Source: Acidobacteriota bacterium
Lineage (GTDB): Bacteria; Acidobacteriota; Terriglobia; Acidiferrales; UBA7541
Direction: 5' to 3'
Assembly: GCA_013286165.1 (NCBI GenBank)
Contig: JABDGF010000015.1
Location: 1 to 41,943 of the forward strand
DNA length: 41,943 nucleotides
The notes under the pieces were generated by a model. The model was not told the origin of the DNA, ran no database searches, and saw only the letters and a list, made by a program, of their open reading frames with translations. This document shows, in pieces, positions 2,787 to 33,158 of the stretch (within the stretch, counting starts at the first letter, position 1; the number at the start of each line of letters is the position of its first letter). The position numbers and the translations under genes are program-made.

Positions 2787-5438
2787 CTACTCGTAGCGCA
2801 GTGCGATGATTGGATCGGTTCGCATAGCGCGGCGAGCGGGGACGTACGCGGCGACGAGAGCGACGACGAGAAGCAGTCCGCCGACCCCGATGTAGGTGAG
2901 TGGATCGTTGGGATGCACGCCGAAAAGAAGACCAGCCATCAAGCGCGAGAGAAGTAGAGCACCGATAAGCCCGATGCCGAGACCGATCCCGGCGAGCGTA
3001 AGGCCTTGGCGTAGGACGAGCAGAAGGACTTGCCAGCGGCTTGCGCCGAGAGACATGCGAACGCCGATCTCGTGGGTGCGGCGCGTGACGGAGTAACTCA
3101 TCACGCCGTAAATGCCGACGGCTGCGAGCGTGAGCGCAACGGCCGCAAAAACAGCGAGCAGCAACATTTCGAAGCGCGGCTGGGCATTTGCTTCGGCGAC
3201 TACGCCGTCCATGGTCACAACCTCAGAGATGGGTAGGTTGTGATCGAAGCTCCACACCGCGGATTTCACCGAGTTCGTGAGCGCTGCCGGATCGCTAGTC
3301 GCGCGGACCACCAGCGTGATGTAGGAAACAGCGGAGTTCTTCTCGCCTAGGAAGTTCGGATCCTGGAGAGCGGCTCGATAGACTTCGGGCTCGATCTGCG
3401 CGGCCCAGTCGGACTGCGCTGCGTTTTTCGAAACGCCAACAACGGTGAGCCAGTCCTGGTTGCCACGATCGGTATCAAAGGTGAGGCGTTTGCCAACTGG
3501 GTCTTCGTTCGGCCACACGTCGTGCGCGAAGCGCTGGTTTACCACCACGACGTGCGGCATGGTCATGGTGTCCGTAGCTTCAATCGCGCGTCCCTCCAAA
3601 ATCGGGAGTCGCATCGTTTCGAAGTAGCCGGGAGCTGCCTCGCGGTAAACGGCCGACGGCATGTCTTGCGGCGCAGGTACGGGACGTCCGCCAACGAGAT
3701 AGCCGACGCCCCACTGGTCGCCGTCGAGCGGAAGGTGATTGATGGCGCCGACGGATTCCACGCCGGGGAGGGCTCGGACGCGTTCGAGAAGATTGCGGTA
3801 GAAAGCTTCGCGCGCGGTTTGCGGCTCTTCCGCTGAGCCGGCGACGGAAACGACCATCGAGAGAACGCTGCGCGGATTGAAGCCAGGATCGACTGAGCGC
3901 AGCGCGGCGAAGCTGCGAGTGAGAAGTCCTGCGCCGACGAGAAGAAGCAGCGCTAGCGCAAATTCAGAAATCACGAGCAGGCTGCGAAGGCGGTTTCTGC
4001 CGATGCCGTCGCTCGTGCCCCGACCGGATTCCTTCAGCGTCTCAGCGAGATTTACCGCAGAGGCTTGTAGCGCGGGAGCCAGCCCAAAGGCGACGCTGCA
4101 AAGAACGGTGATCGCAATCAGAAAAATCACGGCATGGGCGTCAACGGCGATGGAATCCAGGCGGGGAAGTTCCGCGGGGCTTAGCGCGACGAGTGCGCGT
4201 GTGCCCCATACGGCGAGCACGAGGCCAAGTACGCCGCCCGTCGCGGAGAGCAACAAATTTTCAGTGAGGAATTGGCGGACGAGACGGCCTCGACTCGCTC
4301 CAATCGCGGTGCGCACGGCGAGTTCTTTTTGCCGTGCTGCGGACCGCGCTAGCAGCATGTGAGCGACGTTGGCGCAGGCGATCAATAGGACTAGACCGAC
4401 GGCCGCCATCAAAATCAAAAGAGGAGCCTGAACCTTCCCTACTACTTTTTCTTTGAGCGGAGTGATCGTGATTCCGCGGTTCGTGCCGGGAAATTGCGCG
4501 TCGAGATTGCTTGTGATCCCGGCGAATTCCGCGCGAGCTTGCCCGAGCGAAACGCCTCGAGCGAGCCGCCCGAAGACTCGCGCCGAGTTGAAGCCTCGAT
4601 CGGTGACGTGGTGAAGCACGAACGGCATCCAGAGTTCCGATTTCGTGGCCCAGAACGGGGCAAAACGGAAACCCTGCGGCATCACGCCAACGATCGTGAA
4701 CGTCTCGCCATCGAGTGTGAGGGGCTTTCCGACGACTGCCGGATCGCCGCCGAAATGCCGCTGCCAGAAGGCGTAGCTTAGAATCACTTCGTGGTCCGCG
4801 CCTTGCTTGTCTGCGCCGGCGGTAAACCAGCGGCCGAGAAGCGGCGGCACGCCGAGCATGGGCAAAATACTCTGAGAAATTCGCAGTCCTTCGACGCGCT
4901 CGGGCGAGGAAACGTTGGAAAGATTCACCGAACGCATTTCAGCCGCGCCCATCGATTCGAATGACTTCGATTGAGCTTGCCAGTCGATGAAGTTAGCAGG
5001 GGAGACGGGTCCGGTTTCGCTGCGGAGAATGGTTACGAGGCGGTCGGAGTCGTTGTAGGCAAGCGGGCGCAACAGGACGCTATTCACGACGGTGAAAATA
5101 GCGGCGTTGGCACCGATGCCGAGTGCGAGCGCCAGGATGGCGACGATGGTGAAACCCGGCGCGCGCAGCATCGAACGAGCGCCGAAGCGCAAATCCTGGA
5201 GAAATGTTTCGAAGAGGTTGGCGCCTGCGGCGTCGAGGCATTCCTCTTTGGTTTTGTCGAAGCCGCCGAATTCCAGGCGCGCGCGCCGCATCGCATCCTC
5301 GTGTGAGATTCCGCTGCGCATGAGGTCTTCGACGTACGCGTCGATGTGAAAGCGAAGTTCTGCGTCCATGCCGGTGGCGAATTCTTCGCGACGGGCTGAC
5401 GATTGAAACAGCGACCGCAGGTGCTGCCAGAACGTCAT
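2787..5438 (-). CDS. ADOP-family permease A (MacB/FtsX-like, no ATPase)
   Basis: This 883-residue membrane protein is the last of four tandem paralogues. Residues 1-75 are the permease-prefix domain (MDAELRFHIDA followed by [10 protein letters not shown]). Transmembrane helix 1 is at about 97-122, followed by a large periplasmic MacB-type core domain, a three-helix FtsX unit at about 340-460, another helix near 490, a second periplasmic domain, and a second FtsX unit carrying the RRTHEIGVRMSLGAS motif. The C-terminus is DPIIALRYE, shared in form by all four copies. The ATG at 5438 has GGAG a few bases upstream. Architecture and length fit the acidobacterial duplicated orphan permeases, which carry two FtsX modules on one chain and no linked ATPase. 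Substrate is unknown. It starts 42 nt after copy B stops, so it is probably the distal gene of the PadR operon. Confidence 0.9.
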   Translation of the reverse strand: MTFWQHLRSLFQSSARREEFATGMDAELRFHIDAYVEDLMRSGISHEDAMRRARLEFGGFDKTKEECLDAAGANLFETFLQDLRFGARSMLRAPGFTIVAILALALGIGANAAIFTVVNSVLLRPLAYNDSDRLVTILRSETGPVSPANFIDWQAQSKSFESMGAAEMRSVNLSNVSSPERVEGLRISQSILPMLGVPPLLGRWFTAGADKQGADHEVILSYAFWQRHFGGDPAVVGKPLTLDGETFTIVGVMPQGFRFAPFWATKSELWMPFVLHHVTDRGFNSARVFGRLARGVSLGQARAEFAGITSNLDAQFPGTNRGITITPLKEKVVGKVQAPLLILMAAVGLVLLIACANVAHMLLARSAARQKELAVRTAIGASRGRLVRQFLTENLLLSATGGVLGLVLAVWGTRALVALSPAELPRLDSIAVDAHAVIFLIAITVLCSVAFGLAPALQASAVNLAETLKESGRGTSDGIGRNRLRSLLVISEFALALLLLVGAGLLTRSFAALRSVDPGFNPRSVLSMVVSVAGSAEEPQTAREAFYRNLLERVRALPGVESVGAINHLPLDGDQWGVGYLVGGRPVPAPQDMPSAVYREAAPGYFETMRLPILEGRAIEATDTMTMPHVVVVNQRFAHDVWPNEDPVGKRLTFDTDRGNQDWLTVVGVSKNAAQSDWAAQIEPEVYRAALQDPNFLGEKNSAVSYITLVVRATSDPAALTNSVKSAVWSFDHNLPISEVVTMDGVVAEANAQPRFEMLLLAVFAAVALTLAAVGIYGVMSYSVTRRTHEIGVRMSLGASRWQVLLLVLRQGLTLAGIGLGIGLIGALLLSRLMAGLLFGVHPNDPLTYIGVGGLLLVVALVAAYVPARRAMRTDPIIALRYE

Positions 5439-5480
5439 GGTGTCTCCATTTTTACGACGCGACGTGCGCGGATTCGCCGG

Positions 5481-8156
5481 TCATTCGTAGCGCAGCGCCA
5501 CAATTGGATCCACGCGCATGGCTCGGCGCGCGGGAACATACGACGCGAGCATGGCAACCGCAGCGAGCAAAAGTGCGACGGCGGCAAACGTGAGCGGGTC
5601 ATATGAATTCACGTTGAAAAGCATCGCGCTGAGGAATCGCGTGAGCACGAACGCGCCCGCGAGACCGGCGACGACTCCGATGATAACGAGGCGAAATCCC
5701 TGACCGAGCACAAGGTTCATGATGTGTGACCGCTGTGCGCCGAGCGCGACGCGGACGCCGATTTCCTGCGTACGCTGGCTCACCGCGTAAGCGATGACGC
5801 CGTATATGCCGACTGCGGCGATGAGCAGCGCCGTTGCGGCGAAAACGCCGAGCAGGAGCAACGTGAACCGACGGTCGGCGTACCACTTCGAGACTTCGTC
5901 GCTGACCGTAGAGAACTCGGCGGGAAGCGTGGGATCGAGATCGTGGAAGATGCCGCGCGCGGTGGAGATGATTGCCGCGGGAGGCTGCTCGGTGCGGACG
6001 AGCAGGTTGTATGTGTCCGCGCCCTGAGGCCGCTGTCGATAATTTGTATAGATGAGCGGCGATTGCGGCGCGGTCGGACCGTCCATGCGCACATCGCCAA
6101 CGACGCCGACGATAGTCATGATTCGCGTGTCGCCGTCCATGTTGCCAAACTCAATCGTCTGCCCGACGGGATCGGAATCGGGCCATTTCGCGCGAGCGAG
6201 GGCTTCGCTGATGATGGCGACGTGCGGCGCGTCGATGGTGTCTGAATCATGGAAGAGGCGGCCGCGCACCAGTGGAATCTGGAGCGCGCGGAAATAGCCT
6301 TCGCTGACGACGCAATATTCGGCGTCGCCGAGACGCGCCGGATCCTTGGCGAGGTTGCCGAATTCGTCCATCGATTTCGGCGGAGCAATTCCGTTCATCA
6401 GGATGAACGTTCCGTTGGCGGTTTGTCCCGACGGCGGCACGCTGCCGGTGAGGCCGACTTCGGTGACGCCGGGAACGCTGCGCAATTTCGCGAGAGCATT
6501 GTCGAGGAATTGCACTTCGCGCGGTTTGTCGGCGTCTGTTGCAGACGGCGGTGGAGAGAAGCGTGCGGCTACGACGTTCTCAGGGTGAAAGCCGCCTTGC
6601 ACGTCAAGTAACTGGAGAAAACTGCGGCCGAGCAGACCTGCGCCCGCGAGCAGGATCAGAGTGATGGCGACCTGAGCGACGACCAGAACGCGGCGCGTGC
6701 GTTGGCCGGAGGCTGAGGGCGAGCCCGTGCGGCCGCCTTCTGCAAGCGCCGTCTGCGGATTTGCTCCAGACGCGCGCACCGCCGCGACGAGGCCGAGCAC
6801 GACGGCGACGACGATTGCGACGCCGAGAGCGAACGCGAGCACGGCCCAATTCACGCCGATATTTTCTTTCAGCGCGAGCGCCGGCGGCGCGAGACGCGGC
6901 AAAATCGCGGCGCCCCACAGTGCTAGCGGAATTCCAGCGGCGGCGCCGAGAAGCGAGAGCAGAAGAGTCTCAACCAGAAATTGCGAGACGATGCGCGGGC
7001 GTCCGGCGCCGAGTGCGACGCGAACGGCGAGTTCGCGTTTGCGCGCCGCGATTTGCGCGAGCAGGAGGCTTGCGATGTTGGCGCAGCCGACGAGCAACAG
7101 AAACGCCGCACCGCCGGAAATCGCAAGCAGCGCGGGGCGCATTGGGCCGACCATCGAGTCTTGCAGCGTGCGGACGGCCGCGCCCGTCATCCACGTGTCG
7201 TCGCCGTACTGCTTCTTCAATGTTGCGGCGATGGATTGAAGATCAGCCTGCGCTTGCGCAAGCGTGACGCCGTCTCGCAGGCGGCCAAGCCCGTGCCAGT
7301 TGAGTGCAGTGCGGCTGTTGCGCGGCGCTTCGAGCTCGCGCGGAATCCAGACGGCTGCGTCGGTGGGGAAATTGAAACCCGCCGGCATCACTCCGATCAC
7401 GGAGTAGTCGTCGCCTTCGATGTGCAGGCGCATGCGCGAAAAATCAGTACTCGCGCCGAGATAGCGTTGCCAGTAGCCGTAGTTGACGATTGCGGTACGC
7501 GCCGCGCCCACGTGTCGTTCGTCTTGCGCGAAGCTTCGGCCGATGAATGGTTCAGTGCGCATCGTGGAAAAGAAATCTTTGGAGACAACTGCGCCGATCG
7601 CCCGCGTGGGTTCGCTGCCGCCAGACATCGACACTGGGTACGCGGCGTACTCGGCCATCGTTTGTAGCGAGCGATTTTGCTGCTGAAGATCGGTGAAATT
7701 GGGATCGGAGAGGTTGCCTAGGCGGTCTTTGTCGTCGGTCTGCCAGATGCGGACGATACGATCGGGCTGCGGGTAGCCCAGCGGGCGCAGCAAGACGCCG
7801 TCGATGACGCTGAAGATAGCAGTGTTCGCGCCGATACCGGCCGCGAGCGTGATCACGGCGACGGCAGTGAAGCCGGGATTTTTGCGCAAGGTGCGAAATG
7901 CGTAGCGCAGATCCTGCGCGGCGTTTTCGATGAAGCTCACGCCGCGAGCTTCGCGGCATTCTTCTTTGGTTTTATCGACGGCGCCAAATTCAAGACGTGC
8001 GCGGCGCAAGGCTTGTTCTCGCGATGCGCCTTCGCGCACGAAGTCTTCGGCACGCGCTTCGATGTGGTGGCGCAGCTCAGCGTCCATCTCATTTTCGGAG
8101 GCTGAGCGCTGCGTTGTGTTGCGGAACCATGAATTGATCTTGCTCCAGGCAGACAT
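5481..8156 (-). CDS. ADOP-family permease B
   Basis: This copy is 891 residues long from the ATG at 8156, chosen because AAGGAGAT lies directly upstream and because the prefix domain of its paralogues starts there; the frame stays open further upstream but gives unrelated sequence. Order of parts: prefix domain ([21 protein letters not shown]), first transmembrane helix with the [11 protein letters not shown] motif, periplasmic MacB-type domain, FtsX unit with [13 protein letters not shown], second periplasmic domain, and FtsX unit with [15 protein letters not shown], ending DPIVALRYE. It follows copy C after 22 nt. No ATP-binding subunit occurs anywhere near. In the family such proteins are related to MacB-type lipoprotein/efflux permeases, but the job of ADOP proteins is not established. 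Confidence 0.9.
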
Positions 8157-8178
8157 CTCGATCTCCTTCTCGGGAAAG

Positions 8179-10932
8179 CTATTCGTAACGTAGCGCGACC
8201 ATCGGATCGACTTTCGTCGCTCGTTGCGCCGGCAGGTACGACGCGACAAGCGTGACCGCCGCCACAGTCGCGACGGCGCCCGCGAGCGTAAGTGGGTCCG
8301 ACGGTTTCAGACCGAACAGAGTGCTTTCGATCAGGCGCATCGTGACGAGCGTGGCCGGCACGCCGATCGCGATGCCGACGGCGAGCACCACGATCGATTC
8401 GCGCAAAATCAGCCACAGCACGCCGCCCTGTTGCGCGCCCAGCGCCATGCGTACGCCGATTTCATTGGTGCGGCGGACGACACTGTACGTCATCACGCCG
8501 TAGAGGCCGATGCACACGAGGAGCAGCGCCAGGAGCGCGAAGAAAATCGAGAGCTGCGAGATCAGCGTCTCGCGGCTCGTGAATTGGTCCACGTGCTCTT
8601 GAATTGTGTGGATGGAAGGGACGGGCATATTCGGGTCGAGCTGGTTGAGCGCGGCGTGGACGCTGGCCGCGGCGCGCTCTGGATTGCCCGAAGTGCGAAT
8701 CTGCATCCACGAGACGTACGAGTTTTCGCCGGTCATCTGCGCCAGCGAGAGATACACGAGCCGGCGCGCGTTATCGCGGGGGCCGCTGTACAGGACGTCT
8801 TTCACCACGCCTGCAATTTCCCAGTCGCCATCGAGGCCGGGCATGTTCAGAACGAGCGTCTGGCCCACAGCGCCGCCATTCGGGAACAAATCGTGAGCGA
8901 GCTTGTCGTTGATTACCACGATGTGCGGCGCAGACGCGCCGTCGCGTGCTTCGATGACGCGTCCCTGCTCAAGGCCGAGGTGTAGCGTTTCAAAGTAATT
9001 CGGCGTCATGCGGAGAAAAGTGCTCTGGGTATCTTCGTCGGGATTCACGGGCCGACCTTTCACCGACACCGTGGTGGACCAGCTACCCATGGCCATGGGT
9101 GGCACATTGGAGAGGGATGACGCCTCGACGCCCGGGAGAGCGTTCATGCGATCGAGCAGCGTCCGGTGGAATCCGTCGAGTTGTTCCGGTTTGTAACCGG
9201 CGAGCTTCGGTTCAATATTCACGACAAGCAGGTGGGAACGCTCGAATCCGAAGTCGCGATTTTCGAGATTGCGCAGCGTGCGGAGGAAAAGGCCGGCGCC
9301 TACGAGAAGCACGAGTGACAGCGCCACCTGTGCGGCGATTAGAATCTGCGGCACCATCCGCGAACCGCGCGAGCTGCTTCCCACCGCCGAACGCACGCTC
9401 GAATTCAAGCCCGTCTGCATCGCCATCCGCGAAACGCTCAGTGCCGGCCCGATCCCGAACAGCACGCCGGTCAGCAGCGAAACGCCGAGGCTGAACGCGA
9501 GAACATGCCAATCCGGCATGGCCTGAATGGTCGTAAACTTTTCGCCCTTCGCAACAAACGCGATCAGCCCGCTAGTGCCCCAGTAGGCGAATACGAGACC
9601 CAAGGCTCCGCCGCACAACGACAGCGAGAGAGATTCCGTGAGCATCTGCCGCACGATTCGCCAGCGGCCGGCGCCGAGCGCGAGGCGCGTTCCGATTTCG
9701 TGTTCGCGCGCGAGAGTCTTCGCGAGCAGGAAATTCGCGAGATTGGCGCACGCGATCAGTAGCACCACTGCAACCACCGCCATCAGAATTCGAAGTGGTT
9801 GCTCGTAGCGCGAACGCAGTTGCGAAACGCCTTCCGCGCCGGGCAGAAGCTCGACGTAGCTCTTTTCGATTTCCTGTTTGCGCTCCGCGGTCGCGTCGCC
9901 TTCACGCGCGCGCATGTAGTCGCGCAGTTGCATCGTCATCCATTGCTGCGCCTGCGCACGCGAAACGCCCGGCTTCAGGCGGCCCATTATTTGCAGCCAG
10001 TAGTAACCACCGGGCGCGTTGAGCGACTCCGTCATCATGATCTGCGGCTGCATCCCGAGTGGAACCCAGAAGTCCGTCGGCACCGCTTCGCGATGCTCGC
10101 CGTAAAAATCGCGACCTGCCACGCCGACGATGGTGAGCGGCGTGCTGTTGACGGTAATCGTTTGTCCGATTGCATTCGGATCGGCGTTAAGCGAAGAGCG
10201 CCAGTAGCGGTCGCTCACTACGACTACCGGCCGGCTGCTTGCGCCGTTGTCGTCGGCGGGATCGAGCAAACGTCCGGCGGTCGCCGGCACGCCGAGAACG
10301 TCGAAATAATTTCCACTTACGAGAATCGTCTGAGCCGATCCGATGCCGCCCTCGCCACTGCGCCGCACCGTGGTGCGCAAAGCTCCGCCACTTTCGTACG
10401 CAGCGATGCCGCTGAACGCTTCGCCGCTCTGCTGCATACGCTGATAAAGCTCGTATGGGAAAAGATCGATCGAGCCGGAGATGCCGTCCACCACGCCGCC
10501 GTCGGTTTGCTTTCCGATCGAGACGAGGCCTTGCGGGTCTTTGACCGGCAGGGACTTCAATATCAGGTCGTTGATCAGGGTGAAGATGGCGGTGTTGGCG
10601 CCGATGCCGAGGGCGAGCGAGAGGATCGCGATCGCCGTGAAGCCCGGGCTACGGCGCATGGTGCGGAACGCGAAGCGCAAATCCTGCAATAGATTTTCAA
10701 TCATGCTGACTCCCTGCGCCTCGCGGCATTCTTCTTTCATGCGATCGACGGCGCCAAAGTCCAGGCGTGCGCGCCGGAGCGCTTCGTCGTGTGAGAGGCC
10801 GGCATCGTCGCGCTGGAGCGCGTCGGCGTACGCTTCAACGTGAAAGCGCAGCTCGACATCCATGTCGCCTTCGTAGCTGCCGCGATACTTGAGCGCCTTC
10901 AGCCAGGTTTGCAGCTTCGACTTCGCGCTCAT
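8179..10932 (-). CDS. ADOP-family permease C
   Basis: This copy is 917 residues long. The ATG at 10932 is chosen because it overlaps the stop of copy D in an ATGA (10932-10929), a classic sign of translational coupling, and because the protein then starts [10 protein letters not shown] followed by the prefix domain ([21 protein letters not shown]). A longer in-frame version up to 11307 would only read the out-of-frame shadow of copy D. The body has the family plan of two MacB-type periplasmic domains and two FtsX modules, with [14 protein letters not shown] in the first and [15 protein letters not shown] in the second, ending DPMVALRYE. It is the longest of the four, through extra length in the periplasmic parts. 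Confidence 0.9.
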
Positions 10933-13580
10933 TCGTGCCTCAGTGCGATCAGCGGATCGGTTTTCATCGCGCGGCGCGTGGGGATGTAGCAGGCGGCCAT
11001 CGTCACCATGCCCATCACGATCGCGGCGAACGCAAATGTGAGCGGATCGACGGGCGACACGCCATATAGTTCGCTTGCGAGCAGGCGCGTGGCGAGCAGT
11101 GCGAACACGAGACCTACGGAAATGCCGATGAGGGCGTACTTCAGGCCTTCGCGCATCACCATCCACAGCACATCCCGTTTCTGCGCACCGAGCGCCATGC
11201 GAATTCCGATCTCGCGCGTGCGCTTCGCCACTAGAAACGACAGCACGCCGTAGATGCCGATCACTCCCAGCAGCAATGCAACTCCGGCGAACGCGACAAA
11301 GAGCCATGCTGTCGATGCGGGTGTCGCTACGGAATCCGCGACGACTCGGGTCATGGAGCGAACGTCGCTCGCGGGAACTTCGGGATTCAGTTGCGCAACA
11401 GTGGTGCGCAAAATCTCCTGTACTTGGCGGTCGTCGAGGCGCGTATCAATTGTGAGCGTCATGTCTGACGGTATGCCGCCCTGTTCCATCGTCGCTTTCG
11501 TGGTGAAGGGGATGTAAATCACGCCGTCGAAAAGATCGGGGGCGTTTTGCGAGAAGGAGTAGGCGCGCGTATCGGGAACGACGCCGACGACGGTGCGCCA
11601 CTCCTGTTCGCCGCTGAAGCGGAAATGGTGGCCGACGGCGTCTGCGGCGGGCCACAGGCGGTGAGCCGTAGCGGCGCTCATCACTGCTACGGGCGCACTG
11701 GTTTCGTCTTGCGCGCTGAAAGTGCGGCCCGAGCTGATGGGCATCGACATCACGCTGAAATATTCCGGCGTGACGACGTTGAGCCACACCAGCGGCAACG
11801 GAGCGCTGCTGTCTGGGGGATGCCCTTCGATTTCGAGCGAACGCTTCGCGATGCGACCGTCGAGCGGCAGCGTGTTGATGAGCGCCGCGCCATTCACGCC
11901 GGGATGCGATTCGATGCGCTGCACAAGCTCACGATAGAAAGAAATGCATCTCTGAGCGTCGCTGCAGAATTCTTCGTTGGGGGTGATGCGAGCCGTGGCG
12001 GTGGTTGCGACGCGGAAGCCCAGATTCGCGTGCGAGACGGTCCAGAAGCTGCGGATCAGAAGTCCTGCCGCGATCACGAGCAGCACGGCGAGCGCGATTT
12101 CTGTGGTGGCGAGCGCGCCGCGCAGCGCCTGCGAGACGGATTTCGCTGCGCCGCGGCTCGCAGAGCCGAGCGACTCGGCAATCGCGGTTCGCGAAGCGTG
12201 GAGCGCGGGCGCGAGGCCGAACAGAAATCCGGTGACGATGGCGAGCGCGCCGGTGAAGAGCATCACGCGCCAGTCGATGTGCGCTTCAGCGAGGCGCGGC
12301 GTGTCAGGCGGCAGCGCGATTTTCAGAATTTGCAGTCCCTCAGTCGCGAGCAGCACGCCGACTATGCCGCCGATTCCAGCGAGCAGCACGCTTTCGGTGA
12401 GAAGTTGACGCACAAGGCGTGTGCGGCCGGCGCCCATGGCGGTGCGAACCGCGATTTCTTTTTCGCGAGTGGCGGCGCGCGACAACGCCAGATTTGCAAC
12501 GTTAACGCACGCGATGAGCAGAATTAGTCCCACGGCCCCGAGCAACAGCACGAGGCGGCCGCGCACATCGGAGACAAGGCCGGTCGCGAGCGGGACGACG
12601 CTGATGTTTGCATTCCAACTCTGTGGCATCGGCCAGGGGAATAGCTCCCCGACGTGCGCCTGGAACATTCGAATCTCAGTTCGAGCGCGCGGCAGCGTCT
12701 GGCCTTCGCGCAGGCGGCCGAAAATATTCAGAAAATCGCCGGCCCAGTAGGAGTGCGTGTCGCTCGGATCGTTGCGCAGCGGAATCCACACTTCGGTCTT
12801 TGCGGAGGGGAAGCGGAAATCAGCAGGCATCACGCCGACCACGGTGCGATTCACGCCTTCGAGTGAAATCGGATGGCCGATGATCGACGGATCGGAGCCA
12901 AACCGGCGCTGCCACAGCGAATCGCTCAGCACGACGAAGTTGTCTTGCCCCGCGTGGTCTTGCCCGGCTAGAAATGTGCTGCCGAGTGCGGGTTTTGCGC
13001 CAAGCACGGAGAAGAATTCTGCGCTCACCAGCGTTCCGGTCAGACGCTTGGGATCGCTGTGCCCGGTGAGATTGAATTCGTGGCCTTCCGCGTACGCGGC
13101 AGGCTCGATCGAGGTGACGCGTTCGCGCATCGCGACGAACGCGCCTTTCGGATACGTGCCGGTGACATCGACAAGCTTTTCTGTCTGAGGAAAGGGAAGG
13201 GGCCGCAGCAGAATTCCATCCACCAGGCTGAAGATCGCGGTGTTCGCGCCGATGCCGAGCGCGAGCGTCATCACTGCGACGGCCGTGAACCCGGGATTCT
13301 TGCGCAGCACGCGAGCGCCGTACTTCAAATCCTGCACAAAAGATTCGATTGTGCCGACGCCGCGCGATTCGCGGCACTCTTCCTTGGCCTTATCGACTGC
13401 GCCGAATTCGAGTCGCGCTTGCCGTAGAGCTTCGTCGCGCGTCAATCCGGGTCCGCCATGCTCACGCAGCAGGTCCTCGGCGCGCGCCTCGATGTGGAAA
13501 CGCAGCTCCGCATCCATGTCCGATTCGATCGCGGTGCGGCCGGTGAGGCCGCGAGCCCAGGAACGCAGCTGGCTCCACAT
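10929..13580 (-). CDS. ADOP-family permease D (promoter-proximal copy)
   Basis: This copy is 883 residues long and starts at the ATG at 13580, preceded by GGAGGAGGT and only 2 nt after the PadR stop codon. It has the prefix domain ([21 protein letters not shown]), the first helix with [11 protein letters not shown], two MacB-type periplasmic domains and two FtsX modules (KEIAVRTAMGAG and KRTREIGIRMALGAQ), and ends DPLIALRHE. Being adjacent to PadR and sharing ribosome-binding sequence with the end of padR, it is almost certainly co-transcribed with it. Like its neighbours it lacks any partner ATPase in the window, so transport driven by ATP would need a subunit encoded elsewhere. Confidence 0.91.
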   Translation of the reverse strand: MWSQLRSWARGLTGRTAIESDMDAELRFHIEARAEDLLREHGGPGLTRDEALRQARLEFGAVDKAKEECRESRGVGTIESFVQDLKYGARVLRKNPGFTAVAVMTLALGIGANTAIFSLVDGILLRPLPFPQTEKLVDVTGTYPKGAFVAMRERVTSIEPAAYAEGHEFNLTGHSDPKRLTGTLVSAEFFSVLGAKPALGSTFLAGQDHAGQDNFVVLSDSLWQRRFGSDPSIIGHPISLEGVNRTVVGVMPADFRFPSAKTEVWIPLRNDPSDTHSYWAGDFLNIFGRLREGQTLPRARTEIRMFQAHVGELFPWPMPQSWNANISVVPLATGLVSDVRGRLVLLLGAVGLILLIACVNVANLALSRAATREKEIAVRTAMGAGRTRLVRQLLTESVLLAGIGGIVGVLLATEGLQILKIALPPDTPRLAEAHIDWRVMLFTGALAIVTGFLFGLAPALHASRTAIAESLGSASRGAAKSVSQALRGALATTEIALAVLLVIAAGLLIRSFWTVSHANLGFRVATTATARITPNEEFCSDAQRCISFYRELVQRIESHPGVNGAALINTLPLDGRIAKRSLEIEGHPPDSSAPLPLVWLNVVTPEYFSVMSMPISSGRTFSAQDETSAPVAVMSAATAHRLWPAADAVGHHFRFSGEQEWRTVVGVVPDTRAYSFSQNAPDLFDGVIYIPFTTKATMEQGGIPSDMTLTIDTRLDDRQVQEILRTTVAQLNPEVPASDVRSMTRVVADSVATPASTAWLFVAFAGVALLLGVIGIYGVLSFLVAKRTREIGIRMALGAQKRDVLWMVMREGLKYALIGISVGLVFALLATRLLASELYGVSPVDPLTFAFAAIVMGMVTMAACYIPTRRAMKTDPLIALRHE

Positions 13581-13582
13581 TG

Positions 13583-13924
13583 CTAGACCTCCTCCGGCTT
13601 GGTACTCAGAATTCCGGCGATCAGATTCGCCATGCGATTCCACTTTTCCGTTTCCGCGAGCAGGCGGCGCTTTCCGGCGGCGGTGAGCCGGTAATATTTC
13701 GCTTTGCGCTTATTTTCGGATTCGCCCCATTCGCTTGCGATCCATCCCTGATGCTCCAGCCGATAGAGAGCGGGGTAGAGCGAGCCTTGCTGGATCTCCA
13801 GGCGCTCTTTTGAGATTTGCTGGATGCGCAGCAGCACGCCATAACCGTGCAGCGGGCCGAGCGAAACGGCTTTGAGGATCAGCATGTCCAGCGTTCCCTG
13901 CAGCAACTCCATATTCTTGTCCAA
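13583..13924 (-). CDS. PadR-family transcriptional regulator of the ADOP operon
   Basis: This is a 113-residue winged-helix protein. ELLQGTLDMLILKAV, GPLHGYGVL, QQGSLYPALYRLEHQGW and KYYRLTAAGKRRL are the recognisable PadR segments in their normal order. The length is typical of the short PadR subfamily (HTH plus one dimerisation helix). A TTG at 13924 is preferred as start because AGGAG ends 9 nt before it; the ATG at 13912 would give a protein 4 residues shorter but has a poor ribosome-binding distance. PadR proteins of this type usually repress their own operon in response to a small ligand. Here the gene is followed after 2 nt by the first of four ADOP permeases and preceded by a promoter full of inverted repeats. 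Confidence 0.93.
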   Translation of the reverse strand: MDKNMELLQGTLDMLILKAVSLGPLHGYGVLLRIQQISKERLEIQQGSLYPALYRLEHQGWIASEWGESENKRKAKYYRLTAAGKRRLLAETEKWNRMANLIAGILSTKPEEV

Positions 13925-27566: not shown

Positions 27567-27920
27567 CTAGCGAATCCCTCCGACGGTCTGTGGCTTGGCC
27601 GGAGGTTCGAATGTCCCGTCCACGATCGCGACGAAATTGCGCTCTTCGCGCAAAATAAACCGCTTCGCCTGCGCCATCTCGAAATTCGCTCGCCCTTCCG
27701 CATCCGATTTGATGCGGGCGCGATAGGCCTCGTACGACGAAAGATTGTCGAACGCGATCAGCCCCCACGCAATGTCGTTCGTTCCTTCATCGGGAAGAAA
27801 ATATCCGATCAGGTGACCGCCGCAGCGGGGAATGATGCGCCCCCAGTTTTTGGCGTACTCCTCAAAGGCGGCCTTCTGAAACGGATCAATCTGGTATCGG
27901 ATCACGCAAACGGTCTTCAT
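27567..27920 (-). CDS. NIPSNAP family protein
   Basis: A 117-residue dimeric alpha/beta-barrel protein. It opens [25 protein letters not shown] style (positions 2-26) with [20 protein letters not shown] after it, and [17 protein letters not shown], all typical of NIPSNAP/DABB-fold proteins. The ATG at 27920 has AGGAGG 8 nt upstream. It is the first gene of the NIPSNAP, PEP-mutase-like, DUF1990 unit, transcribed away from the ArsR-type regulator whose start is 128 nt off. Members bind small ligands or modify them; the ligand is unknown here. Confidence 0.9.
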
Positions 27921-28013
27921 CTGGATCGCCTCCTAATTCGCGACCTGCCGACTCCTTGAATTGGCTTAGCAGGGCAGCGCGGGCATCATTCGTCCGCCGT
28001 AAAAGCATGCCTG

Positions 28014-28049
28014 TTGCATCTCACGCACACTTCGTCCACAATCAAACTA
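28014..28049 (+). promoter_or_regulatory. Promoter of the ArsR-type gene, probably leaderless
   Basis: TTGCAT (28014-28019), 17-nt spacer, CACAAT (28037-28042), then six bases before the ATG at 28049. Transcription would start at or within one base of the ATG, and there is no Shine-Dalgarno. Each box matches 4/6 of the sigma-70 consensus. Confidence 0.5.
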
Positions 28050-28756
28050 TGAATGTAAGAAAGGAAGCCGAGGTGGAAGTCTCCGAAATCGCCGCCGCGA
28101 TCGGTGAGCCCGCTCGCGCGCGCATTCTTTATTGCCTTTCCGACGGCCGCGCTCGCACCAGCACGGAACTCGCAATCGTCGCAGGCGTTTCACCCTCAAC
28201 TGCCAGCGTTCACCTCAATACGTTAAAGTCCCGCCGCTTGGTGAAAGTCTTCGCGCAAGGCAAGCACCGCTACTACAGCCTGGATGGAGAAGACGTCGCC
28301 GCCGCACTCGAATCGCTCAGCGTCCTCGCCGGAGGCTCCCGGGCTGGCTTTGTGCCGAATACGCCGCACGAACTTCGCGCCGCGCGTATGTGCTACGACC
28401 ACATCGCGGGCACGCTCGGCGTCGCGCTGCACGATCGCATGAAGTCGCTCCGCTGGCTCGTGGCCGATGAAGAATCGGGCGATACTGCGTATAGGCTGTC
28501 GCCCTCAGGTGAAAAAGCGCTCGGCGCACTTGGCCTCGACGTTCAATCAGCCTCGAATTCTCGTCGCCGCTTTGCGTACGCGTGCGTGGATTGGAGCGAG
28601 CGCCGTCCGCACCTCGGCGGCGCGATTGGCGCCGCTCTGCTTCATGCGGCACTCAAAAAGCGTTGGGTCGTGCAGAATCCCTACAGCCGCGCCCTCGAAG
28701 TCACGCGCTCCGGCCGCCGCGAATTCAACGCCCGCTTCGGCCTCGCCGCCTACTAA
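28049..28756 (+). CDS. ArsR-family winged-helix regulator with C-terminal extension
   Basis: A 235-residue protein. Residues about 8-80 are a winged helix: VSEIAAAIGEPARARILYCL, TSTELAIVAGVSPSTASVHL (recognition helix) and VFAQGKHRYYSLDGEDVAAAL. The remaining 150 residues are an extension (ARMCYDHIAGTLGVALHDRM, YRLSPSGEKAL, RFAYACVDWSERRPHLGGAI) found in larger ArsR-type proteins that respond to organic ligands rather than metals; no ArsR metal-Cys pair is seen in the DNA-binding part. The ATG at 28049 is chosen over the upstream frame start at 27956 by promoter position. It is divergent from the NIPSNAP operon and probably controls it. Confidence 0.88.
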   Translation: MNVRKEAEVEVSEIAAAIGEPARARILYCLSDGRARTSTELAIVAGVSPSTASVHLNTLKSRRLVKVFAQGKHRYYSLDGEDVAAALESLSVLAGGSRAGFVPNTPHELRAARMCYDHIAGTLGVALHDRMKSLRWLVADEESGDTAYRLSPSGEKALGALGLDVQSASNSRRRFAYACVDWSERRPHLGGAIGAALLHAALKKRWVVQNPYSRALEVTRSGRREFNARFGLAAY

Positions 28757-28855: not shown

Positions 28856-28885
28856 TTGCTTTTCCCCACATGCGCACGCTATACG
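28856..28885 (+). promoter_or_regulatory. Possible promoter of the DUF805-like/SRPBCC gene
   Basis: TTGCTT (28856-28861), 18-nt spacer, TATACG (28880-28885), 41 nt before the ATG at 28927. The -35 match is weak. The palindrome at 28791 lies about 50 bp upstream of it. Confidence 0.35.
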
Positions 28886-28926
28886 TGGAGCTGTGCAAAT
28901 CACCGACCGCCGCTGCGAGGAAATCG

Positions 28927-30318
28927 ATGACAGGAAAAGTTCTCCTCAGCCTCTTTGGGCGCCCCGACCTTCCGCTGAGCCGCGCGCCCTACGCCGCCAT
29001 TGGACTGACGCTCGCGATCGTGAAGTACGCGGGAGATGTCCTATTGATTTGGTATGCAACCGGCGTTCGCTGGACTCCGTTCGACTATCTCGATCCGTTC
29101 AAACTGCCGCTTCTACATCGCGTCGAAAACGCTCAGTTCGGAATTACGCTGATTCTTATGCTTTGGATGGTTCCATTTCTCTGGATCGGCGTCGTGTACA
29201 CCATGAGGCGTGCACTTGATGCCGGCTGGTCTCCTTGGTGGGCGCTGGCATTTTTTGTTCCGTATCTCAACTACGGCCTGATTTTCACGCTTTGCATCTG
29301 GCCCTCGTCCGATAAATACGCTGTCGGCGAGCGCGGTCGGACTCCGGTACACGGAAGCCCTGCGAACAGCGTCGCACTCGGAATCGCGGCCGGCGTCGTG
29401 TTTGCGCTGGCAATGATCGGAGTCGCCGTGGTGCTAAAAGGAGCATATGCGTTCGGACTTTTCCTCGGCACGCCGTTGGGAATGGGCATCCTTGCCGGCT
29501 ACTTCATGTCGCGCGACTACGATCCGTCTAACATGGATTTTTTCTTCGTTTCGCTCGCCGCGAACGGTGTCGCGGCGATGGTCCTTCTCGCCGTCGCGTT
29601 CGAAGGCGCGATCTGCATCGCGATGGCGTTCCCCATCTCACTCCTGATGACGTATGGGGGCGCTTACGTCGGCTGTGAGATCGCCATCGGCGGACGCGCG
29701 ATTCGCAGACCCGCCGCGTCGGCAATGCTGCTGATTCCGCTGCTCACTTTATTTGAGCCCGCGCATATCGGCGCGCGCCAGCTTCACGTGGTGAATTCGT
29801 CGATCGAAATTAATGCTTCGCCCGCCGCGATTTGGCCTCACCTGATCGAGTTTCAACCGATCGCGCCGCCGCAGGAATTCATGTTTCGCATCGGAATTGC
29901 TTATCCGACGCGGTCGCACACCGATGGCGCCGGCATTGGCGCTACGCGCTACTGCGAATTTTCTACTGGCGCCGTGGTCGAACGCGTCACAACGTGGGAT
30001 CCCGGCAAACGCCTCTCGTTCGACGTGGAGAGCCAACCCGCGCCGATGGTCGAACTGACGCCGTACAAGGACGTCGAGCCTCCGCACCTGCACGGATACG
30101 TCCGCTCCAAGCAGGGCGAATTCCGCCTGGTCGCATTGCCCGGCGGCCGCACGCGCCTGGAAGGAACCAGTTCCTATGAGCTCGACATCGAGCCGGAAAC
30201 GTACTGGAGCTTATGGACCAGCGCGTCGGTCCACGCGATTCACATGCGCGTGTTCGAGCACATAAAGCACGAAGTGGAGTTCCATGCCGCGCAGACGAGC
30301 ACAGCGCCCTTACAGTGA
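28927..30318 (+). CDS. DUF805-like membrane domain fused to SRPBCC (START-like) domain
   Basis: A 463-residue protein from the ATG at 28927, with GAGG 6 nt upstream. The first 130 residues have three helices and the DUF805-like segment MRRALDAGWSPWWALAFF then VPYLNYGLI. Further helices lie at about 150-175, 180-195, 205-235 and 240-265. From about 295 a soluble SRPBCC/polyketide-cyclase-like domain begins (HVVNSSIEINASPAAIWPHL, ATRYCEFSTGAVVERVTTWDPG, GEFRLVALPGGRTRLEGTSSYELDI), built to hold a hydrophobic ligand. A membrane anchor joined to a lipid-binding cup suggests lipid or signal handling at the membrane. Probably monocistronic, with 187 bp to the next gene. Confidence 0.8.
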   Translation: MTGKVLLSLFGRPDLPLSRAPYAAIGLTLAIVKYAGDVLLIWYATGVRWTPFDYLDPFKLPLLHRVENAQFGITLILMLWMVPFLWIGVVYTMRRALDAGWSPWWALAFFVPYLNYGLIFTLCIWPSSDKYAVGERGRTPVHGSPANSVALGIAAGVVFALAMIGVAVVLKGAYAFGLFLGTPLGMGILAGYFMSRDYDPSNMDFFFVSLAANGVAAMVLLAVAFEGAICIAMAFPISLLMTYGGAYVGCEIAIGGRAIRRPAASAMLLIPLLTLFEPAHIGARQLHVVNSSIEINASPAAIWPHLIEFQPIAPPQEFMFRIGIAYPTRSHTDGAGIGATRYCEFSTGAVVERVTTWDPGKRLSFDVESQPAPMVELTPYKDVEPPHLHGYVRSKQGEFRLVALPGGRTRLEGTSSYELDIEPETYWSLWTSASVHAIHMRVFEHIKHEVEFHAAQTSTAPLQ

Positions 30319-30505: not shown

Positions 30506-31369
30506 ATGACTAAAAGCGCCATCCTCGCTTTGCTCGCTGCTTCGGTTGTCGGTCTGGGTGTCTTCCACTACAAGCTGAAGCCTCAGCCCGACATGAAGGA
30601 AATTCAGAATCTGGCCAACTATGCAAATGCGCAAACGTCGTGGCGCGGCCAGATCGCTCCCAATTTCGAAGCGCTCACCACGCGTGGCAACCGCTTCAAA
30701 CTCGCCGACTCGATGGGCAAGAAAGTTGTCGTCATCAATTTCTTCGCCACTTGGTGCGGTCCATGCCGCCAGGAAATGCCGGAGCTCAATCGCTACTACA
30801 ACGAGCACAAAAACGAGAATTTCGAATTCATCGCCATTGATTCGGAAGAGCACCAGGACAAAGTCGAGTCCTACATCGACGACTTGAAGCTCGATTTTCC
30901 CGTGGCCATCGACGAAGGACCCATCCAAAAGCAGTACGGCGTGGTTGCGTTTCCCACCACCGTCCTGATCGGCGTGGATGGCCGCGTTCAGTTTTACGAA
31001 TCCGGCGCCATCGGTAACGCCGACGTGATTTTCGATAGCCTGCTCGCGGCGAATCGCAAATTGCTGAGCAACGGAAAGACCATCGCGCCCTCAGACTACG
31101 CTCGCGAATCCGCCGCGCATCCCCAACTCCCTCAACAGAATTTAAATCAAGAAGCCGCTGAGACATCGGTGCCGCAACTCGACGAGCGTGGAAAACGCAT
31201 CGCCGCGAAAATGGATTGCACGTGCGGCTGCGACAAGAAAGTTGCCGTCTGCACCTGCAACGCTTCGAAGAAAATCAAAGCCGCGCTCGCGAAAGACGAT
31301 TTCAAGGACGCGAAAGACGACGCCATCATCCGTTCTCTCAATCAACAGTTCTGCCCGGGGGAAATGTGA
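30506..31369 (+). CDS. TlpA-type thioredoxin fused to a CcmH-like Cys-rich domain
   Basis: A 287-residue protein with an N-terminal membrane anchor (about 5-20), so the rest should be periplasmic. Residues about 48-185 are a TlpA/ResA thioredoxin fold with WCGPC (Cys84, Cys87), the cis-proline loop VAFPTT (Pro150) and NFFATW before the active site. After a linker, residues 236-287 carry six cysteines (238, 240, 242, 249, 251, 283) in CTCGC...CTC plus helices (KIKAALAK, DDAIIRSLNQQFC), which recall the CxCGC-type CcmH/NrfF modules of cytochrome c maturation. Its stop TGA overlaps the GTG start of the next gene as ATGTGA, so translation is coupled to the ABC ATPase. Likely role: reducing disulfides or handling thiols in the periplasm with the transporter. 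Confidence 0.87.
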   Translation: MTKSAILALLAASVVGLGVFHYKLKPQPDMKEIQNLANYANAQTSWRGQIAPNFEALTTRGNRFKLADSMGKKVVVINFFATWCGPCRQEMPELNRYYNEHKNENFEFIAIDSEEHQDKVESYIDDLKLDFPVAIDEGPIQKQYGVVAFPTTVLIGVDGRVQFYESGAIGNADVIFDSLLAANRKLLSNGKTIAPSDYARESAAHPQLPQQNLNQEAAETSVPQLDERGKRIAAKMDCTCGCDKKVAVCTCNASKKIKAALAKDDFKDAKDDAIIRSLNQQFCPGEM

Positions 31370-32274
31370 TCGTCGCCGAAAATCTTCGCGTTGAATTCCG
31401 ACGGCGCCTGTTCGCCCCAAAGCTTCAGGCTCTGATTGGCCTGAATCTCGACGTTCGCGACGGAGACTTTTTCGCGCTCGTCGGGCAGAACGGCGCCGGC
31501 AAATCCACCGCGATGTACTGCATGCTCGGTCTGCTCGCGCCCACATCCGGCAAGATCGAAGTGATGGGCCGCACGCCCGACCTCGGCGCTCCCGCAAACG
31601 AACAAGTTGCCTATTTGCCCGAAGAGCCGCACTACCACCTGTATCTCACGGTAGAAGAAGCGACGCGCTACTACAGCACGCTCTACGGCCGTCGCGTACC
31701 CGAATCGACGATCAGCGATGTGCTCGACCGGCTTGGCCTCGGCCCGTTCCGTTCGCTGCGGCTTTCGAAGTGTTCAAAAGGCATGAAACAGAAAGTCGGC
31801 ATCGCGCAGTGCCTGATTCACGAAACACGTCTGCTGTTTCTCGATGAGCCTACGCGAGGACTCGACCCGCTGGTTGTCCGCGAGTTCCGCGAAGCGCTCC
31901 GCGAAATTCACAAGCGCGGTACCACCGTCGTGATGAACTCGCACGTACTCTCGGAAATCGAAATGCTCGCCAATCGCGTGGCCATCATCGACGCCGGCCG
32001 CGTCGTGTTACAGGACGATCTGCAAAACCTGCTCACGCTCGACAAGGAATCCTACGGCGTCACGTTCACGCCCGTTGGCGATGTGCCGTCGTTCATCACC
32101 TCCGTCGAGCGCGTCGGCGATCTCGTGCGCGGTTCAGTTCCGAAGGAACGTCTCTACGATTTCATGGAATATTCGCGCACCGCGGGCGCCACCGTGCAGG
32201 AATGCTCGCTGAAAAGATCGTCGCTCGAAGATTCGTTTTTCAAGGTCGTCAACGAGGGGAGGGCCACGGCATGA
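31366..32274 (+). CDS. ABC transporter ATP-binding protein
   Basis: A 302-residue ATPase starting at a GTG (31366) that overlaps the previous stop by 4 nt. Walker A GQNGAGKST (40-48), signature SKCSKGMKQK (134-143, an unusual form of LSGGQ), Walker B LLFLDEP (156-162), D-loop GLD and switch His193 are all present. The Q-loop position reads YLPEEPHYH rather than having Gln. The C-terminal 90 residues (EEYSRTAGATVQ-like end region) are the regulatory tail usual in ABC-2 exporters. With the permease that overlaps its stop by 4 nt it should form a homodimer-based exporter. Being 302 residues, it is longer than CcmA-type ATPases. Confidence 0.93.
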   Translation: MIVAENLRVEFRRRLFAPKLQALIGLNLDVRDGDFFALVGQNGAGKSTAMYCMLGLLAPTSGKIEVMGRTPDLGAPANEQVAYLPEEPHYHLYLTVEEATRYYSTLYGRRVPESTISDVLDRLGLGPFRSLRLSKCSKGMKQKVGIAQCLIHETRLLFLDEPTRGLDPLVVREFREALREIHKRGTTVVMNSHVLSEIEMLANRVAIIDAGRVVLQDDLQNLLTLDKESYGVTFTPVGDVPSFITSVERVGDLVRGSVPKERLYDFMEYSRTAGATVQECSLKRSSLEDSFFKVVNEGRATA

Positions 32275-33158
32275 GCGCCGCTTCTACTGCGCTTCCGAAT
32301 CGCGGATTGATTCCGGTGCAGACGCCGGCCGCCGCAGTCCCGCCCGCTAACGCGTTTTTCGTGATCCTGCGCGCGAATTTCGTTGCGGACGTGAAATTTC
32401 TGCGCCGCAGCCGCCTGATCATGGCCTTCGTTTTGGTTTTTCTGGTAATCACCGTGCTTTCGCTGCTCCCATCCGCCTTTGGCCAATCGGAATTCAAGAG
32501 TTTCGGCACGATGGAGCAAATCTACGGGGAACTCCGGCTGTTCCTCGCAATTCTCGCCGGCGGCATGGGGCTATTCCTCGTTTCGTTTCACCAGCGCGAT
32601 CGCAGCCTCAAAATGGTTTTCACCAAGCCCTGCACGCCTGCAAACTGGCTGCTCGCTGCGATGCTTTCCGCAAGTTTCGTTTCATTCGTCCTGAACGTGG
32701 TGATCTGCGCCGTGATGGTGGGCCTTTCGTACGGTTGGCACCTCGCCGTTCGTCCAGGCCTTATGTTCCTGGCGTGCGAATCAGTGATCGTGGATATCAT
32801 CGTGATTTCCACGATGACGCTGCTCGCCTCGCTGGTTCATCCCGCGGTGGCGGCGACCGTCGCGATCCTATTCAACGGCAATTTGTTTTACAGCTTTCTT
32901 CAGTGGTCGCTGCAGACCATCGCGGAAGGGAACAAGACGCTGAAGATGCGCGCGCTCGAACATTTTTTTCACGCGCTCTACATGATCATTCCGATGTATA
33001 GCCCGTTTGGAAAGCACATCGATTCGGTCGATGGAAGTTACCGCGTCGAGCATGGCCAGTGGAAATATTTGGCGTTCTCGCTCGGATACGCGCTCACGTT
33101 CGCGCTGGTGGCCTATCTGGTCGCGCTGCTCTCGTTGCGCCGCAAGCGTCACATCTAG
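32271..33158 (+). CDS. ABC-2-type transporter permease
   Basis: A 295-residue protein from the ATG at 32271, which overlaps the ATPase stop as ATGA and has GGGGAGGG upstream. After a Pro/Ala-rich N-terminal tail of about 35 residues there are six hydrophobic helices: about 52-74, 98-116, 135-165, 172-195, 200-222 and 265-287. ILRANFVADVKFLRRSRLIMA and SFHQRDRSLKMVFTKPCTPANWLLA fit the ABC-2 permease layout. The exported substrate is unknown. Transcription ends against the convergent Kelch gene only 5 bp away, with no visible terminator. Confidence 0.88.
   Translation: MSAASTALPNRGLIPVQTPAAAVPPANAFFVILRANFVADVKFLRRSRLIMAFVLVFLVITVLSLLPSAFGQSEFKSFGTMEQIYGELRLFLAILAGGMGLFLVSFHQRDRSLKMVFTKPCTPANWLLAAMLSASFVSFVLNVVICAVMVGLSYGWHLAVRPGLMFLACESVIVDIIVISTMTLLASLVHPAVAATVAILFNGNLFYSFLQWSLQTIAEGNKTLKMRALEHFFHALYMIIPMYSPFGKHIDSVDGSYRVEHGQWKYLAFSLGYALTFALVAYLVALLSLRRKRHI

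Follow-up and report, generated by a model that had tools for sequence, protein, structure and literature searches.

The trio locus

The window, by which we mean the whole stretch of 41,943 nucleotides analysed, belongs to an Acidobacteriota MAG (G000) that is 55% complete. Careful reading of the window revealed three consecutive genes on the plus strand, hereafter the trio. The first (30506..31369, 287 aa) encodes a TlpA/ResA-like thioredoxin with an N-terminal membrane helix and a C-terminal CcmH-like cysteine tail, referred to below as the fusion. It is followed by an ABC ATPase (31366..32274, 302 aa, GTG start) and an ABC-2 type permease (32271..33158, 295 aa, ATG start). The stop of the fusion gene and the start of the ATPase gene overlap by 4 nt in GTGA, which lies inside ATGTGA (31366..31369), and the stop of the ATPase gene overlaps the start of the permease gene by 4 nt in ATGA (32271..32274). 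The mechanically made list of open reading frames extends the ATPase and permease frames to longer upstream starts; the starts within the two overlaps are likely the true ones. An earlier note on this DNA had described three genes joined by 4-nt overlaps, and the open reading frames and both junctions are as it described. In other members of the trio family the same junctions are overlaps of 4- to 35-nt or gaps of 1–4 nt. No promoter-like match and no excess of terminators were found in the trio region.

Directly upstream of the trio, at 28870-30318, lies a gene encoding a DUF805 membrane domain fused to an SRPBCC-like (Polyketide_cyc2) domain. Further away in the window, four large tandem open reading frames on the minus strand (2787-13643) resemble, judged by eye, permeases of the MacB/FtsX type.

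The fusion protein

The fusion starts with a putative anchor helix, placed by the structure model at residues 3–24 (30512..30577, plus strand), and continues with a thioredoxin-fold domain at residues 48–188 (30647..31069, plus strand). Pfam assigns residues 48–163 to AhpC-TSA (2.4e-25), and the domain matches ResA and CcmG folds with Z scores of 17–20. The active-site motif WCGPC occupies residues 83–87 (30752..30766, plus strand). This motif, an FPTT sequence holding the conserved proline, a fold match to ResA at a Z of about 20 and the predicted anchor helix are all features of the TlpA/ResA/CcmG thioredoxins; the NCBIfam equivalog cut-offs were missed for both ResA (108.6 vs 170) and DsbE (50 vs 123.15). 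WCxPC is present in seven of the eight trio members. A CcdA/DsbD-type protein, possibly the electron source for the fusion, is encoded in 11 of the 11 genomes that have the trio or its permease.

The CcmH-like tail comprises residues 223–287 (31172..31366, plus strand), with three helices predicted by the structure model at 227–235, 252–262 and 271–282 and with six cysteines, C238, C240, C242, C249, C251 and C283. The first three make up a CTCGC motif (residues 238–242; 31217..31231, plus strand) and the following two a CTC motif (residues 249–251; 31250..31258, plus strand). Five of the six (C238, C242, C249, C251 and C283) are invariant among seven tails, and C240 is shared by five of them. 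The position of WCGPC and the cysteine count thus bear out the earlier description of a WCGPC thioredoxin fused to a six-cysteine tail.

When the tails were searched alone, six out of seven matched the Pfam family CcmH (PF03918), three homologous tails scoring above its curated cut-off of 25 (30.0, 26.1 and 25.2 bits) and three below. The tail from the window gave no direct match to PF03918, and is 41–43% identical to tails that do match. A profile of the tails searched against PDB sequences had two CcmH structures as its best two matches (E 0.03-0.04, not significant alone). A fold search with the whole fusion was filled by thioredoxins and is uninformative on the tail. In the alignment with CcmH the first tail cysteine falls opposite the first cysteine of CcmH, whose second cysteine is matched by an invariant glycine, so the CXXC of CcmH is not kept and CxCGC is found instead. 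By these sequence matches the tail appears CcmH-related, in keeping with the TlpA-CcmH-like fusion proposed earlier, and the refuting case then named, a tail belonging to an unrelated zinc-binding family, did not hold since the tail aligns with CcmH.

A TlpA-like protein encoded elsewhere in the same genome (L002:1330-2331) likewise has a thioredoxin followed by a tail bearing CTCGC. It differs from the fusion in that its tail has no Pfam match, and no ABC gene is found among the listed open reading frames of its 3 kb locus.

The ABC pair

The ATPase matches ABC_tran in Pfam (5e-26) and has recognizable Walker A (GQNGAGKST), signature (CSKGMKQK) and Walker B (LLFLDEPT) motifs. Its kin in NCBIfam are DrrA, GldA and the lantibiotic-protection ATPases, below every curated cut-off shown. 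Among bacterial ATPases of known structure NosF is one of the closest, and the protein also resembles Rv1218c.

The permease, which carries a KPC motif between its second and third long helices, has no match in Pfam or NCBIfam, CcmB included, and a permease profile gave chance matches only against PDB sequences. The nearest fold to its structure model (pLDDT 74) is that of NosY (Z 16.4, rmsd 4.3, 236 aligned, 14% identity), followed by PmtD (Z 15.6), tied with NosY within the stated margin, and CcmB (Z 14.3). All of the best folds are of the ABC-2/ABCG/ABCA type. Because NosY, PmtD and other ABC-2 exporters lie so close in Z, the permease fold singles out no one function.

Taken as a pair, the ATPase and permease belong to the ABC-2 type of transporter. 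An identity as CcmAB was rejected, as the ATPase reaches 91.2 bits against a CcmA cut-off of 131.6 and the permease has no CcmB match. The earlier note had anticipated both points; the CcmA score, the permease without a profile match and the ABC-2-type folds agree with it.

Distribution and inheritance of the trio

The trio is found in the same order in eight genomes, including that of the window, from at least three phyla; the other seven belong to Nitrospirota and to the small phylum of genome G490. Identity across phyla is 22–54% per protein. A genome scan identified a full-length fusion gene in a Nitrospirota MAG (L008) and in a MAG of the G490 phylum (L009); in both, the genes for the same ATPase and permease come next. 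Using a permease profile, trio-grade matches were obtained in 7 of the 295 Nitrospirota genomes scanned and in 3 of the 35 from the G490 phylum, those of L008 and L009 among them. The trios at L008, L009, L124, L125, L129 and L130 are complete, and at L126 the contig stops within the permease. Contig ends truncate two further loci, L127 and L128, on their upstream side, and the permease of L128 is split over two frames. In genome G574 a permease of the trio family (L123:2618-3460) has no ATPase or fusion gene detected upstream; the contig contains N gaps, and a misassembly or a split operon is possible. Chance, or an oddity private to one MAG, was rejected on the recurrence in other phyla.

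Within the genus and phylum of the window the trio is very rare: in the phylum, none of 100 relatives had a permease match, and none of 395 further genomes sampled had a trio-grade one. A Desulfobacterota-type sample, likewise of 395 genomes, contained no trio-grade permease, and the plasmids searched had no permease match. Conservation across genomes, which the earlier note had put forward as a test, is thus found in other phyla and lacking in near relatives. A truncated relative of the permease occurs in another member of the Acidobacteriota (G160, L090:9675-10172), where no ATPase or fusion gene was detected; it looks like a remnant.

Acidobacteriota, Nitrospirota and the G490 phylum also contain weaker permease matches (E 1e-4 to 1e-10). 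These were rejected as trios, since in the loci read they adjoin an ABC ATPase and no TlpA gene. For this reason, and because of their long branches, they were used as outgroups. The trees of fusion, ATPase and permease agree at supported nodes, and the genes flanking the eight loci have nothing in common save one weak distant match. It follows that the trio is the unit, and that it has been inherited as a module with a patchy spread. A transfer into the lineage of the window is likely, although not proved.

That the contig itself fits the genus is indicated by a small DUF gene and a divergent ArsR-type regulator (window 27567-28756), which lie side by side in two genomes of the same genus at 65–77% identity; the possibility of a foreign contig in the bin is thereby partly tested. 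The trio and its immediate flanks were not found in those two stretches.

In the trio of genome G805 the thioredoxin gene (L130:2819-3460) has NFFSARSAAC at the position of NFFATWCGPC. The thioredoxin fold is kept, the first active-site cysteine and the whole CcmH-like tail are lost, and the ATPase and permease are retained. Either the ABC core can function there in the absence of redox chemistry, or the G805 copy is in decay.

Possible function

A self-contained three-gene envelope machine, in which an ATP-driven ABC core works with a dedicated redox partner on a thiol- or metal-bearing substrate, is the reading we prefer, and we give it an even chance of being correct. Two ATPases and two permeases would form the core in the inner membrane, and the N-terminal helix of the fusion would keep that protein next to the core. 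A comparable arrangement is known for CcmE, which is docked on CcmB through one helix (PMC10457321), and by analogy we infer that the fusion serves the ABC core as its redox partner in the periplasm. CcdA/DsbD would pass electrons to WCGPC, which in turn would keep the tail cysteines reduced, and the tail might then bind or hand over a thiol- or metal-ligated substrate. ATP hydrolysis would drive this substrate across the membrane or release it outside. The logic would resemble that of NosDFY-NosL, where NosL and NosDFY cooperate in maturation (PMC7660919), or of CcmABCD-CcmE, each an ABC core with a periplasmic chaperone; here the partner would be a reductase, and not one serving cytochrome c.

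This envelope-machine reading is supported by the gene order kept in eight genomes, the agreeing trees, the unshared flanks and the tails that match CcmH. The ResA/CcmG-like thioredoxin, the NosY, PmtD and CcmB folds, the NosF-like ATPase, the CcdA/DsbD proteins of 11 genomes and the lack of PF01578 matches in G490, G786 and G805 were also counted in its favour. Counted against it were the G805 variant, the lone permease of G574, the non-specific permease fold, its pLDDT of 74 and the 55% completeness of the MAG.

A role close to cytochrome c maturation has to be considered, as System I comprises TlpA/CcmG and CcmH domains, the job of CcmH in heme attachment being still unclear (PMC3601427). 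Like the trio, System I (CcmAB, CcmG and CcmH) combines an ABC pair with a TlpA-like reductase and a CcmH domain, and the CcmB fold is among those near the permease (Z 14.3). The trio could accordingly be an accessory of that pathway, with the fusion reducing apocytochrome CXXCH and the ABC pair replacing CcmAB. The PF03918 matches of the tails speak for such a role, as does the fact that each of the seven Nitrospirota genomes carrying the trio or its permease has PF01578 (CcmC/CcmF/CcsA) proteins. We nevertheless regard it as improbable. The trio ATPase and permease fail the CcmA and CcmB tests, no flanking gene is common to the eight loci, and the trio differs from System I in that the reductase and CcmH parts are fused and CxCGC...CxC stands where CcmH has CXXC. 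Furthermore, PF01578 has no match in the trio genomes of the G490 phylum (G490, G786 and G805), nor in the 55% complete G000, and its proteins occur in only 2 of the 35 genomes of that phylum. The absence of a CcmC/CcmF/CcsA gene from three trio genomes, whose completeness is not given, argues against cytochrome c maturation strongly but not finally, and is in line with the separate system suggested in the earlier note.

The resemblance of the ATPase to DrrA, GldA, lantibiotic-protection ATPases and Rv1218c, and the tie of PmtD with NosY (Z 15.6 vs 16.4), would suit an ordinary ABC-2 exporter of peptides, lipids or drugs, with the extracytoplasmic thioredoxin of the operon folding the substrate or the transporter. 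G805, which retains the ABC pair without the redox motif, fits this as well. In seven of eight loci, however, the ABC pair is accompanied by the redox protein with the invariant cysteines of its tail, and recurring precursor or biosynthetic genes are missing from the flanks. An ordinary exporter seems to us unlikely.

We think it similarly doubtful, though less remote than a cytochrome c accessory, that the trio handles copper or iron in particular, which would be a special case of the envelope machine, the tail carrying the metal and TlpA acting as the reductant, in a logic similar to that of NosDFYL or the Fet cluster. The invariant cysteines of CxCGC, CxC and the further position look metal-binding in sequence, and TlpA is known to reduce copper sites before metal loading (PMC7558416). 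NosDFY-NosL, a nitrous oxide reductase maturation system in which NosDFY works in copper-sulfur centre assembly, shares with the trio a small ABC core and a periplasmic partner, NosY is the closest solved permease fold (Z 16.4, 14% identity) and NosF a close ATPase; the partner of the trio, in contrast, is a thioredoxin-CcmH fusion. In Campylobacter jejuni fetMP-fetABCDEF, ABC transporter genes adjoin those of membrane-associated thioredoxins; when iron is limiting, two thioredoxins are paired with the transporter in fetBCD-fetEF (PMC10783030). The TlpA domain matches FetE in fold (Z 15.9). That cluster differs from the trio in having two permease genes, more genes in total and no CcmH tail described, and its role is tied to iron limitation (PMC10783030). 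Against metal trafficking, a Pfam scan of the genes beside the window's trio recognized no metal enzyme or metal transporter and no NosD, NosL or NosZ, and the flanks of the eight loci have no recurring gene.

In the library searched, the literature yielded no paper on the trio combination. The parts are known, and the combination is new among redox-partnered ABC machines. More tentatively than for the envelope machine as such, we suggest a new class of ABC machine coupled to redox chemistry. In it, a five-cysteine domain derived from CcmH would have left cytochrome c maturation, become fused to its reductase and gained a NosFY-like core that would load a thiol- or metal-bearing cofactor or move it across the envelope. 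That a CcmH-type domain stays together with a reductase and an ABC pair in genomes that showed no gene for cytochrome c assembly suggests a broader role in thiol or metal handling, and the trio offers a compact system for testing this wider role. The envelope biology of uncultured bacteria would also gain a recurring ABC machine.

Two cysteines of the ATPase, Cys136 inside the signature CSKGMKQK and Cys280, do not vary among the eight aligned trio members, and redox sensing by the ATPase through this pair is possible.
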